Shown here one piece after another: positions 19,670-27,211 of a DNA stretch of 64,000 nt (positions within the stretch are counted from its first letter, which is position 1; each line of letters opens with the position of its first letter). Both the position numbers and the translations under genes were made by a program. The notes under the pieces are model-generated. The model was not told the origin of the DNA. It was given only the letters and a program-made list of their open reading frames with translations, and did not search any database. The stretch is from Cytophagaceae bacterium (lineage in GTDB: Bacteria; Bacteroidota; Bacteroidia; Cytophagales; JAIYAX01), in assembly GCA_027488815.1 (NCBI GenBank), contig JAIYAX010000023.1, positions 1-64,000 on the forward strand. The letters are read 5' to 3'.

Positions 19670-19975
19670 TTACAAGTCCACACTCAATTTTAAATGTCCT
19701 CCAAGGCCTTCCTGAATGATTCTCATTAATGTTGAAAGCCTGATGTCGCTGGCATCATTTTCTATCCGTGAAATATAGGTTTTTGTTGTCCCACATTTCT
19801 CCGCCAGCTCAGCTTGGGTTAACCCTCGTTCTTTGCGTAGCTCTTGAAGCATAACTCCAAGCTTGAAGGCTTCAAATTCCTGCTCATATTTCTCTCTTAA
19901 AGCAGTTCCACGTTTTCCGTATTGGCTGTCCAAATGATCAGCGAATGAAGTCAAATTAGTTGTTTTCTTTTTCAT
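19670..19975 (-). CDS. HigA-type antitoxin (XRE helix-turn-helix)
   Basis: 101 residues from ATG 19975. A helix-turn-helix fills about residues 45-95: 'LGVMLQELRKERGLTQAELA' and 'CGTTKTYISRIENDASDIRL'. A frame extends upstream to 20053, but those codons are the out-of-frame tail of the toxin gene, so the later ATG is preferred. HigA-like antitoxins neutralise the HigB mRNA interferase and repress their own operon. It follows the toxin gene, in the higBA order, and in the un-shifted frame the toxin would overlap this start by 20 bp. The antitoxin itself looks intact. Confidence 0.88.
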   Translation of the reverse strand: MKKKTTNLTSFADHLDSQYGKRGTALREKYEQEFEAFKLGVMLQELRKERGLTQAELAEKCGTTKTYISRIENDASDIRLSTLMRIIQEGLGGHLKLSVDL

Positions 19976-20310
19976 CGAAGTATTGTTTTCTAAGTTTTTC
20001 TGCCTGTTCAATTTCCGCTTTAGGGGTTTTTTGAGATTTCTTTTGAAAGCCATTGAGCAAAACGATCAGCTTCCCATTTGTCGAAAAAGCTGAAAACCCT
20101 GAAAATGTCTGACCCAACCTCAACTCGTATCTCATAAATGCCTGACGAATTTGTCATGTGGCTGAAAAATTTCTTTGGGACTCTTTCTGTAGTAGCAATT
20201 AACTGTAAGGTCCAGTTGAACTTTTTCTGAACCTCCGGTTTCAAGGAATTGAAAAAACTTAGGTAATAGTCCTTGTAATAACAGATTTCCCTTAGATGCT
20301 TTTCGGCCAT
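19956..20310 (-). pseudogene. HigB/RelE-like toxin gene with a one-base frameshift
   Basis: The frame from ATG 20310 encodes 'YYKDYYLSFFNSLKPEVQKK' through 'IFRVFSFFDK' like HigB/Gp49-family toxins. It then switches to a foreign 17-residue tail (WEADRFAQWL and on) and stops at 20020. The correct family C-terminus, KLIVLLNGFQKKSQKTPKAE to KQYFDEKENN, is encoded intact in another frame and ends at 19956. Removing one base (A on the plus strand, at 20076) restores FFDKGKLIVLLNGFQKK. The lost C-terminal helix carries part of the expected fold, so the product is probably inactive. A sequencing error is the main alternative. Confidence 0.85.
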
Positions 20311-20683: not shown

Positions 20684-21703
20684 TTATACTTCGTGTCGAC
20701 TGTACGTCTCTAACAGTTTTAGAAATACCTCCGGATCTATTATTTTTTTATTTATTTTGTCAAAATATTCAGCAGAAAAAATTTCGAATTGTCTTGAATT
20801 ATACGGTGATTTTTTCGCCGCAATTATAAAATTGTAATCTGATAAATATCTCACCCTTAATTTAGCTCCAAACGATTCCACAACTTTACCATTAATAATT
20901 GTTGCTCCGTCATCATAATGTTCTCGACTTATTGGTTTTTTACCTAAAAGAGCATACTCTTCATTACAAAACCCACGTTCCTCTATACTTTCCTGTATTT
21001 CTTTTGCTGTATAATTGTTTAATCCAATTTGCTTTTCTCCAACACATTCAACATATATAAAGCATTTATGGTATGATTCACTTAGATAGACCGCTATTCT
21101 ATTTATCTCAAGCTCTTTAGTTTCAAGTAAAATTTTTGTACTTGAGAGCTGTTTAAATTCCTTTATAAACATTGAACTATGACCTCGAAACCACCATAAA
21201 GGATCAGATGGAAATTCGGAATCAATGTTTTGTTTGAAATTAATTGGTTCTTTAAAAACAATTTTTAGCCTTTCTACCGCAGTTTTTGAATTGTACCATT
21301 TTAATCCTCTTTGACCAGGAAACGCTCCAGTTAATCTGTTAAAATAAAACACAGTTGAAGGTTCGTAAATTGTTGGTAGTTCTTGAGGAACGTCTTTGGT
21401 TAGATATTTTTTCCTTAATATACCTAATAATAATTTAATAAAAACAAACAATGCCCAATAAATTATAAACAATCCAAACCATAAAAGCATATTATTTAAT
21501 TCAGTTCTGGAATTAAAGTATTTTATAATTGGTTGTGCAGCCGATTTAATTGATATCTTTTCATACAAACTTTTTACGATGACAAAAAATCCAGTTCCAA
21601 TTCCAATAAAAACTGCAGAAATAATTTTACTCCATACTGGGTCGGGCCAGTACTTTTGGATAAAAATGTTTTTATAGTTATTTATTTTTTTTTTAAAATC
21701 CAT
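20684..21703 (-). CDS. Two-helix membrane protein with a conserved-looking soluble domain, unknown function
   Basis: 339 residues from ATG 21703. A longer frame to 21784 would use TTG and runs into repeat copy 2, so it is not used. Membrane helices lie at about residues 16-36 (IISAVFIGIGTGFFVIV) and 60-82 (LLWFGLFIIYWALFVFIKLL). A cytoplasmic domain follows from about residue 140 to the end, with 'DPLWWFRGHSSMFIKEF', 'KCFIYVECVGEKQIG', 'EEYALLGKKPISREHYDDGA' and 'RVRYLSDYNFIIAAKKSPYN'. I do not recognise this domain. The gene is strongly A+T-rich compared with the core genes, in keeping with the accessory setting. Confidence 0.75.
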   Translation of the reverse strand: MDFKKKINNYKNIFIQKYWPDPVWSKIISAVFIGIGTGFFVIVKSLYEKISIKSAAQPIIKYFNSRTELNNMLLWFGLFIIYWALFVFIKLLLGILRKKYLTKDVPQELPTIYEPSTVFYFNRLTGAFPGQRGLKWYNSKTAVERLKIVFKEPINFKQNIDSEFPSDPLWWFRGHSSMFIKEFKQLSSTKILLETKELEINRIAVYLSESYHKCFIYVECVGEKQIGLNNYTAKEIQESIEERGFCNEEYALLGKKPISREHYDDGATIINGKVVESFGAKLRVRYLSDYNFIIAAKKSPYNSRQFEIFSAEYFDKINKKIIDPEVFLKLLETYSRHEV

Positions 21704-21772
21704 ACATTTCAAAATATTACCGCAAACTCGTTTATAGGTCTGATACCCACCAGACTTTCCTAAGTCCCTTAC

Positions 21773-22010
21773 AAAAATGACCAAATTCTATAAATCACCA
21801 AACCTTTACTCTATTATTTCTTCAGAAAAGACCTTTAAGGCCTAAAGCAACGTTCTCTATCGCCCCCTAGCATGTGAAGACGATTGGGGTTTAGCAATGG
21901 GATTCTTATCAGGTGAGGACACCTGCCAAGGGGGAGGGTTCGCACCAGTTGGGGAGTAGGGGGTAAAAATGGCTTGTGGGACACGAAGCATGGCACGGGG
22001 ACGTTTGGCG
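21773..22010. repeat. Structured intergenic repeat, copy 2
   Basis: It fills much of the 415-bp gap 21704-22118. The first 160 bp are closely similar to copy 4 (from 'CAAAAATGACCAA' through 'CCTAAAGCAACGTTCTC' to the hairpin). It includes the perfect CAGGTG-AGGA-CACCTG hairpin (21910-21925) and CACCAGTTGGGGAGTAGGGG. The rest of the gap (22011-22118) shows no gene or recognisable signal. Confidence 0.8.
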
Positions 22011-23928: not shown

Positions 23929-24170
23929 ACAAAAATGACCAATTTTTATCAATCACCAAACCTTAACTCCATTATTTCTTAAGAAAAGACCTATAAGGCC
24001 TAAAGCAACGTTCTCAATCGCCCCCAGCATGTGAGGACGATTGGGGTTTAGTAATGGTATTCTTGTCAGGTAAGGACACCTGCTATGGAGAGAAAAGCAA
24101 TCGAGTTTAGGTACGAGCCACAGGCTCGCACCAGCAGGGTCGCACCAGCAGGGGAGGATGTGCTGTTGGT
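23929..24170. repeat. Structured intergenic repeat, copy 4
   Basis: It lies in the 415-bp gap 23766-24180, which has no gene. Its left 160 bp match copy 2. It has CAGGTA-AGGA-CACCTG (24067-24082) and the stem CGAGCC (24114-24119)/GGCTCG (24123-24128), where copy 1 has CGAGCT/AGCTCG: a compensatory T-A to C-G change. The block TCGCACCAGCAGGG occurs twice in tandem (about 24126-24152). It ends just before the stop codon at 24181. Confidence 0.8.
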
Positions 24171-24180
24171 GACTGAGCTT

Positions 24181-24757
24181 CTATATTGTCTTTGCTTTAT
24201 CAATAGTCTTTTTTACTTTGTCAATGTCAGAAATTAGCTTTATGATTTCAGGGTCAATCCAAGTTAGTAAGTTGGTTATAGATTTGTGGACTTCTCGTGT
24301 AGCTGTAAAGTCGATGTTATTTCCGTTAAAGCAAATGGGCTCATTATGTTTAATTCTGTTTCTGAAACGTCTTACTTTATCCATTTCATCATTTACTTCT
24401 TTCCTTCCGTGTCCAACAGGTAATGACTGAAATATTTGTATGGGTTTGCTTATAGTTTCAAACGGCTCATCGGATTGAGCAAGTGATTTAAAAAACCTAT
24501 CTAACTCTGTTTGAACAGCATATTTGGTAAAAGACATAATAAAAAGCAGCAGATGCTTAAAGTCTAGTTTTCGGTCTCGACTAAAATCTTTTGGATTAGA
24601 CCTGTTTTTGTCCACAAACCGCTCATTATCAATGGTTTTAGTGGTGGAGAAAAAAAGCCCTTCTACATAAAGGGCTTCCTTCTTTTCAATATTCGAATTT
24701 ACTAATTTTTCGCAACTATTTATCTTATTTACAAAATAATTTACTCTTTTTATCTTA
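24181..24757 (-). pseudogene. Chimera: IS4-type transposase N-terminus joined to an Abi-like C-terminus, no proper start
   Basis: One open frame runs from about 24757 to the stop at 24181 without an ATG; the first usual alternative start is GTG 24615, giving 144 residues. The upstream part and residues 1-57 ('VDKNRSNPKDFSRDRKLDFK', 'KYAVQTELDRFFKSL') match the N-terminal region of IS4-type transposases of Bacteroidota. From about residue 68 ('GHGRKEVNDEMDKVRRFRNR', then IKHNEPICF) it changes to the C-terminal pattern of Abi-like/abortive-infection proteins (RNRIxHxEPI). The join looks like a deletion fusion. Whether it is translated is doubtful. It lies directly next to the AIPR gene. Confidence 0.7.
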
Positions 24758-24771
24758 ACTTAACGACATTG

Positions 24772-24791
24772 GGCTCGCACTAGCAGGGGAG
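24772..24791. repeat. Structured intergenic repeat, copy 5 (fragment)
   Basis: GGCTCGCACTAGCAGGGGA is the same block as in copy 4 (GGCTCGCACCAGCAGGG), located directly before the stop codon of the AIPR gene (24792). Only this short piece remains. Confidence 0.6.
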
Positions 24792-26669
24792 TTATGCTTC
24801 GTCAGTTGTATCTTCTTCCTCTTCATCGTTCTTCATTATGTCCACCACTTCTTCATCTTCTTTTAATTCAATAGCTTCAATAGTTTCAGGATTGATTTCA
24901 ATTTCTTCAAGTTTTCCCTTTACTCTTTCGTATTGGCTTGAAGATGTTAGGAAGCTGATAAATTTATCAAAGGATTTTTCATCCTCATTGAGATTAAATT
25001 CCTTTTCAAGATACTTGTTAATGAACTTAAATGTCTTTAGAATTATTTCTGTATCACTTGCATTATATAGTTTCTGAATATGAAGATTTATATTGATTTT
25101 GTCTCCGAATGTAGATTTACAGTATTTGGTAAACATTATTTTAAAGAGGGAAAGCACATGATATAAATTACTTGAAAAAGTATCTTCGAGGTCAAAAGAG
25201 GTTCGTTTGATAATTATGTCTAATAAATAAAAGGAGGTGACAAAATCTTCAAATTTGGAGTCATTATTAAATATTTTCTCATAAAGTCCATCTTTATGGT
25301 CTTTATGTGAAACAAAAAGCAAATCCTTTCTAGTATCTTTTCTTTGTCTGTAATTATTTAAAACACCTACAGGGTCTTGAAGTTGGTACGCTAAATAACA
25401 ATTAGCGAAAACAATATTCGGTATTCGTTTTACACCTTTGGGTATAGTTCTAAATTCTCCTCTTCGTTTTTCATACCAATAATTGGTCGAATAAAACTCA
25501 TTTTGCAATCTAACTTGAATGTCATCATTCGCCCTAAAATCTCTTTCGTTAACAGGGTTCTGTGAGTTAGTATATCTTGTAACCTTTAAGTCAAAGTCCC
25601 GTCCGCCTGATTTGAGTAATCGCAAAGTTATTAATGCTTCACTATCAATAATAGAGCGTTTTGTTGGGTTTGCCTCGCTATATGCTTTATAAATTGAATA
25701 AACAGTTTGTGCACCATTGATAATTTGAAGCCCAGTTAGTTCAATCGTGGTGGCTTCATCTCTTACCTCGGGGATAAGATATGTTATAGCAGTTAGTCCG
25801 TTGTTATAATACCAAAAATATGCAGGATTATCAGTTGCTGTTTGTTCAATTTCTTTATTAAAGTCAGACGTTATCAATGGGTTTCTGACATTCCTAAAAA
25901 ACAATGAAAAGCCATATTTTTCAAATAGTTCAAAAATAGTTTTAGGTTTAATAAGGAACACATAAGCTTCAAATGGCTTCTCAACTCTGATATAATTTCC
26001 TGAAGCAGGATTTGTCCTTTGAACCTCAATGTTTATTTTGCTTTCTTCTGGATTGTAATAATTCTCAAGTGGATTTATTGGGTCTATTTTCTTAAACCTT
26101 CTTTCAATGTAGTCAACCTTAAGCTTGTTAATGTCATAAAAATCAAATCTCGTTCTCTTGTGATTTTCGATAAAACTTTTGACGTTGTCGTCTGCTTTTG
26201 GATTGTTATTTGAAAGCGTAAGATAAATGAACTTTACATCACCATTTGCTTTCTGATGTGCTTGTAGTTCATCAATTTTTGTTTTTAGTTTAGTGCTGAT
26301 TTTTTCTTTTTTACCCCTTAAAATGGTATCGAAATCGTTAAGAGCTTGTAAGATGTCCTTTTTCTCAACTGCCTTGTTACAATTTGTTTCGATATTCCAT
26401 TTGGATTGAACGATATAGAAAACTCGTTGTCCTTGATTGTCAAAATTGTCAAAAACTATATCACAAGAACTGTCTTCGTCTCCGTCCGTTATGTAACTGG
26501 AGTAATCCGTCTTTTTGCCATAAAATTCCAAGAACCAAATCAATAAAGCATATGCCTTTTGATTGTTCACGGCACTTTTATTCTTTTTTATGTATTCGTC
26601 ATCTTTATACTTACTTATTATCTCGGTAAGTTCGGTGTCAATTATTTTATAAAAATCTTCTGTCAGCAT
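24792..26669 (-). CDS. AIPR-family protein, candidate phage-defence nuclease
   Basis: 625 residues. The N-terminal part (about 35-175) holds a possible PD-(D/E)XK nuclease core: the acidic region 'DGDEDSSCDIVFDN' followed by 'RVFYIVQSKWNIE', where Q-S-K replaces the E-x-K pair as in some restriction-type enzymes. The middle (about 240-440) is an AIPR (abortive infection phage resistance) domain with 'NPAYFWYYNNGLTAI', 'LQIINGAQTVYSIYKA' and 'VTRYTNSQNPVNERDFRAND'. The C-terminus is acidic (DEEEEDTTDEA). AIPR proteins are linked to phage abortive infection; the cleaved target is not known here. It is A+T-rich, with its own promoter box at 26687-26694. Confidence 0.88.
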   Translation of the reverse strand: MLTEDFYKIIDTELTEIISKYKDDEYIKKNKSAVNNQKAYALLIWFLEFYGKKTDYSSYITDGDEDSSCDIVFDNFDNQGQRVFYIVQSKWNIETNCNKAVEKKDILQALNDFDTILRGKKEKISTKLKTKIDELQAHQKANGDVKFIYLTLSNNNPKADDNVKSFIENHKRTRFDFYDINKLKVDYIERRFKKIDPINPLENYYNPEESKINIEVQRTNPASGNYIRVEKPFEAYVFLIKPKTIFELFEKYGFSLFFRNVRNPLITSDFNKEIEQTATDNPAYFWYYNNGLTAITYLIPEVRDEATTIELTGLQIINGAQTVYSIYKAYSEANPTKRSIIDSEALITLRLLKSGGRDFDLKVTRYTNSQNPVNERDFRANDDIQVRLQNEFYSTNYWYEKRRGEFRTIPKGVKRIPNIVFANCYLAYQLQDPVGVLNNYRQRKDTRKDLLFVSHKDHKDGLYEKIFNNDSKFEDFVTSFYLLDIIIKRTSFDLEDTFSSNLYHVLSLFKIMFTKYCKSTFGDKININLHIQKLYNASDTEIILKTFKFINKYLEKEFNLNEDEKSFDKFISFLTSSSQYERVKGKLEEIEINPETIEAIELKEDEEVVDIMKNDEEEEDTTDEA

Positions 26670-26686: not shown

Positions 26687-26694
26687 CAAAGGTA
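26687..26694 (-). promoter_or_regulatory. -7 box for the AIPR gene
   Basis: TACCTTTG on the minus strand is a full TAnnTTTG match about 12 nt (leader) from ATG 26669. The -33 element is not clear. Confidence 0.5.
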
Positions 26695-26765: not shown

Positions 26766-26817
26766 AGTTGTTGATTTCTATCGAATGGCCTTTTCACAGT
26801 TACAAAAAAACAAAAAA

Positions 26818-27211
26818 TGCAAACCTGTAAGCCGGATTCTGTATCCCGACAAGTCGGGCTCTTACCATTTATCTAGCCCGGCCGTCACCGGCAGGGTCAA
26901 GCGATCTACCCGTGAAAAACCATGCAGGAACACAGTAAGGACGAGCAGCCCCCGGGTGCCCATTTGCACCCTTTTCACCTATTTGATCTTTCAGCCCGCA
27001 AGGTTTACCTGCATCTTGCATTACTGCAAAACCGGTGGGCTCTTACTCCACCCTTTCACCCTTACCCCGGCAAGCCGTGGCGGTTTCCTTTCTGTTGCAC
27101 TTTCTGTATCCCCGTTTTCAGGAGACCCTTCCCGTTAGGAAGTGCGGCGCTCTGTGCTGTCCGGACTTTCCTCTCCTGCCAACAGGCAGCAGCGGTAAGA
27201 CGGTTTGCATT
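26818..27211 (-). ncRNA. rnpB: RNase P RNA (class A)
   Basis: The catalytic RNA that trims the 5' leader of tRNA precursors. The conserved core GAGGAAAGTCCGGACA is read on the minus strand at 27159-27174, and ACAGAATCCGGCTTACAG near the 3' end at 26825-26842. The ends pair as helix P1 (ATGCAAACC at the 5' side, GGTTTGCAT at the 3' side). The length of about 394 nt fits type A. A T-rich run follows the 3' end (about 26800-26818). A -7 box lies just upstream (27218-27225), giving a start that agrees with the 5' end of P1. Confidence 0.95.

Follow-up and report, generated by a model that had tools for sequence, protein, structure and literature searches.

A stand-alone AIPR/AbiU-family gene in a Cytophagaceae bacterium with a predicted Mrr-type nuclease domain and a likely role in phage defence

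The window analysed here, a stretch of 64,000 nucleotides from contig JAIYAX010000023.1 of a Cytophagaceae bacterium, carries on its minus strand a gene encoding a 625-aa protein of the AIPR/AbiU family. The open reading frame (ORF) starts with ATG and is uninterrupted. It lies 3′ of rnpB (26812-27211), in a stretch of low GC content (32% versus 43% for the window), and a profile search of the source genome identified its product as the sole AIPR protein. The gene and its associated features are as follows.

24792-26669, minus strand: AIPR/AbiU-family protein of 625 aa, complete ORF (ORF list, profile matches and dN/dS, the ratio of nonsynonymous to synonymous substitution rates)
24996-25901, minus strand: AIPR core domain, residues 257-558 (PF10592, E 3.5e-40 to 4.1e-41)
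26055-26669, minus strand: predicted Mrr-type PD-(D/E)XK nuclease domain, residues 1-205 (hhalign of alignment A3 against Mrr_cat, Pfam leads and AlphaFold2 model)
26460-26462, minus strand: D70 codon; the residue, a predicted metal ligand, does not vary in alignments A2, A3 and A4
26400-26408, minus strand: Q88-S89-K90 codons, encoding the QxK motif predicted as active site, with Q88 and K90 invariant in A2, A3 and A4
26687-26694, minus strand: TACCTTTG promoter box of the TAnnTTTG type, beginning 25 nt upstream of the ATG and kept in the relatives L006 and L008
24655-24677, no strand assigned: terminator-like stem downstream of the gene, listed on the plus strand and followed by a T run on the minus strand (tail read directly)

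The first-pass annotation had proposed an AIPR-family, candidate defence-type gene, and this assignment was borne out by hmmscan, which placed the AIPR domain (PF10592) at 139 bits for a gathering cut-off of 25 (E 3.5e-40), and by the AbiU model of PADLOC (PDLC02357), whose positions 74-515 of 537 were matched by residues 68-555 (E 2.8e-34). A near full-length match was also obtained with PHROG 1841, annotated as "Abi alpha-like abortive infection mechanism" (residues 20-557, E 4.4e-55). Judged by its sequence, the gene is a stand-alone, horizontally spread, defence-type member of a known family, and an ordinary one, which does not represent a novel type of system. A single scan of GTDB genomes yielded 19 relatives with identities between 93% and 25%, distributed over Bacteroidota, Cyanobacteria, Gammaproteobacteria and other groups, and four more came from viral contigs. 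The occurrence is patchy, with AIPR relatives in 4 of 59 genomes of the same order and AIPR proteins in 40 of the 296 genomes sampled from the phylum; AIPR proteins are carried on prophages, satellites and plasmids. Compared with the two nearest relatives, L006 and L008, the gene had a dN/dS of 0.06-0.08 and both halves of the protein displayed a dN/dS of 0.04-0.11, values indicating that the gene is under purifying selection.

Two motifs, DEDSSCDIVF and VQSKW, had been noted ahead of the AIPR domain as a PD-(D/E)XK-like core, and they occupy residues 65-74 and 87-91, respectively. Within A2, an alignment of 17 full-length relatives, D70, Q88, S89 and K90 are kept without exception (17/17). 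Within A3, which comprises 24 N-termini including those of distant AIPR proteins, the sole invariant columns are D70, Q88 and K90, while G63, D66 and I188 are nearly invariant. These three residues supply the D-x(n)-QxK signature of an Mrr-type PD-(D/E)XK nuclease; reviews give PD-QxK as the catalytic motif in E. coli Mrr, the MspJI family and type ISP enzymes, and D-x(10-12)-QxK for relatives of BisI (PMC12707154, PMC3874165, PMC4926085). The suggestion that glutamine in place of glutamate is unusual and marks a distinct subgroup had to be dropped, QxK being the standard Mrr-family site. Among 27 AIPR proteins selected by their core domain alone, a hydrophobic residue followed by QxK was found in 16 (15 scored by script and L049 by eye), typically behind a D-x-G-x-D-like motif, and ExK at that place in none (0/27), so that glutamine is the rule among AIPR proteins with this N-terminus.

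The same residues bear on a different reading of this region. AIPR proteins have been ascribed an N-terminal HEPN domain (PMC3506569), in which case the protein would be an RNase halting infection by RNA cleavage. However, no R-x(4-6)-H pair, the mark of HEPN domains, is conserved in the 17 relatives, where H138 is the sole well-conserved histidine; the invariant residues are D70, Q88 and K90 instead, and the N-terminus of the AlphaFold2 model is alpha/beta and not all-helical. Besides, AbiU2 but not AIPR appears in a survey of HEPN proteins (PMC3710099). A HEPN N-terminus was rejected because no R-x(4-6)-H motif is conserved, and we regard an RNase of this kind as very improbable.

A relationship to nucleases of the Mrr type was found by profile-profile comparison. 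Against an Mrr_cat alignment built from genomes of the phylum, the A3 profile reached an hhalign score of 41.8 (E 5.6e-6), the best of 40 column shuffles scoring 14.3, and in this register D70 pairs with the aspartate of Mrr and QSK with QAK. Single-sequence leads were weak throughout, with Pfam Mrr_cat appearing for 4 of the 24 N-termini (best E 0.0045). A VWA domain was matched by as many (4/24, best E 0.0084), a strength comparable to that of the single-sequence Mrr_cat leads, the profile-profile comparison having covered Mrr_cat only. We did not adopt VWA, given that the invariant residues suit a D/QxK site and that Mrr_cat has the support of the profile comparison. Together with the invariant D70, Q88 and K90, this comparison upholds the PD-(D/E)XK-like core of the first-pass annotation, and the assignment of a nuclease fold to the N-terminus can be described as well supported but indirect. 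In the AlphaFold2 model (mean predicted local distance difference test score, pLDDT, 77.6), helices 3-20 and 34-50 are followed by adjacent strands carrying D70 (68-76) and QSK (82-90), then by helices 103-117 and 126-140, strand 144-151, helix 157-169 and strand 173-178.

Several observations weigh against a nuclease of this type acting in defence. Structure prediction of the N-terminus, proposed earlier as a check, returned a layout that suits a PD-(D/E)XK core, but beta-1 of this core is barely formed and pLDDT falls to ca. 62 around residues 61-70. Searches of the sequences of solved structures in the PDB, using the single protein and two profiles, gave no meaningful match. The close family alone scored 16.2 against Mrr_cat, in an unchanged register and not above its shuffles (17.7), so the nuclease call depends on distant AIPR intermediates; these distant members of A3 were chosen partly for having QxK, a choice that favours the Mrr_cat match and from which the 27-protein count is free. 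About 11 of the 27 AIPR proteins, many of them 690-870 aa long, have no QxK motif, and AIPR function therefore need not depend on it; such proteins may form another clade. Finally, no convincing recurring partner gene was found in the neighbourhoods of the relatives. With QxK missing from some AIPR proteins and the first core strand weak in the model, the PD-(D/E)XK-like domain might serve DNA binding or regulation and not cleavage. Yet D70, Q88 and K90 never differ, in contrast to most of the remaining columns of the N-terminal alignment, which is the pattern expected of an active site, and a non-cleaving domain is quite unlikely in our view. In our reading, the N-terminal domain is very probably a DNA-cutting one of the ordinary Mrr kind.

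The genomic surroundings of the gene had been described as variable, and this description is supported. In three full-length relatives (43-45% identity), the gene is located in P4-like satellites, with psu on one side and int on the other. This site has been presented as harbouring a reservoir of systems against phages (PMC9122126); AIPR is among the domains given for the site in a figure legend of that source, and the main text names no validated AIPR gene. A search with a satellite relative as query found no near match in E. coli genomes. Another relative, L009 (60%), follows genes for a C5 methylase and a HaeII endonuclease, a HaeII-type restriction-modification (RM) pair. Based on such neighbourhoods, the defence context of the AIPR relatives is strong. 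Neighbours recurred only as the shared backbone of the satellites, a syntenic pair in cyanobacteria, a single ABC-type ORF match and an ORF pair in L015 and L016. The latter are small, weakly related ORFs of unknown family located downstream of the AIPR gene in these two gammaproteobacterial relatives (L015:9823-11069 and L016:10703-11410), one of which has a weak HSDR_N match.

The RM pair next to L009 raises the possibility of an RM accessory, which would cut DNA according to its methylation or act as a fallback upon RM failure. AIPR proteins are often linked with RM (PMC3506569, PMC2292703) and QxK nucleases of the Mrr type often depend on modification (PMC12707154), but no RM gene adjoins the AIPR gene in the window or in most relatives, and hardly any neighbour recurs beyond the satellite backbone and a few isolated pairs. 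We consider an accessory role of this sort unlikely.

The gene looks like one that spreads alone. Its similarity at the DNA level to L006 (89%) and L008 (85%) extends from ca. 40-55 bp upstream of the start through the gene and ends at the stop codon, which suggests that gene and promoter form the mobile unit; the relatives whose DNA similarity is limited in this way are those with 87-93% identity. The promoter box anticipated by the first-pass annotation was confirmed, TACCTTTG having counterparts at the identical position in L006 and L008 (TAGCTTTG and TAACTTTG); across the window, each strand has 0.48 TAnnTTTG boxes per kb. A matching -33 element could not be recognised. Integration at the 3′ end of rnpB was rejected, as this end is not repeated downstream within the window.

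Beside the gene, an Abi-like remnant had also been reported. An ORF does exist there (24181-24615, minus strand), but it is a chimera, residues 1-50 matching the N-termini of IS4-family transposases (47-49% identity) and residues 70-131 the C-terminal portion of PADLOC PD-T4-5 (E 2.5e-7), with an RNRIKH (R-x4-H) motif. This chimera is flanked by a 20-nt direct repeat (24123-24142, 24137-24156 and 24772-24791), the last copy of which abuts the AIPR stop codon. The repeat core has no further exact match in this genome, and the repeat is possibly a recombination scar. Further along the minus strand are a protein of 366 aa that has apparent membrane segments at its N-terminus and matches nothing in Pfam, PADLOC or NCBIfam (20684-21784), and a toxin-antitoxin-like pair comprising a Gp49/HigB-like protein followed by a helix-turn-helix protein (19670-20310).

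Overall, we consider it likely that the 625-aa protein is a single-gene AIPR/AbiU defence effector, in which an AIPR-gated Mrr-type DNase acts on phage infection. Its N-terminal ca. 200 residues would constitute a metal-dependent D...QxK DNase, and the AIPR core with the helical C-terminus would be a sensing and regulatory part restraining the nuclease until a phage cue is perceived. Upon activation, the nuclease would cut DNA and phage replication would stop, probably with damage to the host and hence an abortive outcome. The sequences themselves show that the protein belongs to the family, that the D/QxK residues are conserved, that the N-terminal family is related to Mrr_cat, that selection is purifying, that the gene is transferred alone and that relatives reside in defence sites. 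We infer DNA as the substrate, as well as control by the AIPR core, the phage trigger and the abortive outcome. A broader and more tentative proposal is that QxK-type AIPR/AbiU proteins in general are self-contained Mrr-type DNases gated by their AIPR core. If true, AbiU-type abortive infection would operate by DNA cleavage, whereas one review assigns it HEPN RNase action. AIPR proteins are widespread, and the D/QxK site of the Mrr type that even distant members have conserved provides a simple DNase hypothesis that can be tested directly.

Among known systems, AbiU is the closest, all 17 relatives (17/17) matching both PADLOC AbiU and PF10592. The gene is solitary here, in contrast to lactococcal AbiU, which has been described as abiU1 plus abiU2 (PMC3985639), and a nuclease domain is named in neither the AbiU nor the PF10592 record. 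Sequence comparison revealed no feature setting the protein apart from PHROG 1841, whose annotation comes without a mechanism. The protein and MzaE of the MZA system have a portion of the AIPR core in common (residues 208-394), but the score of 57 bits is far below the NCBIfam cut-off of 1050, and no other mza gene was found among the window neighbours. DndB has been placed with AIPR (PMC3506569); hhalign of the AIPR core against DndB/DGQHR, with few DndB sequences used, did not reproduce this, giving a weak 22.1 for a shuffle maximum of 17.7 and DGQHR not falling on INGAQT. With the type IV restriction nucleases of Mrr_cat (PF04471), the D-x(n)-QxK site and its surroundings align, although the protein itself has no Pfam-level Mrr_cat match. 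Where Mrr and MspJI have winged-helix or SRA reader domains, the 625-aa protein has the AIPR core instead.
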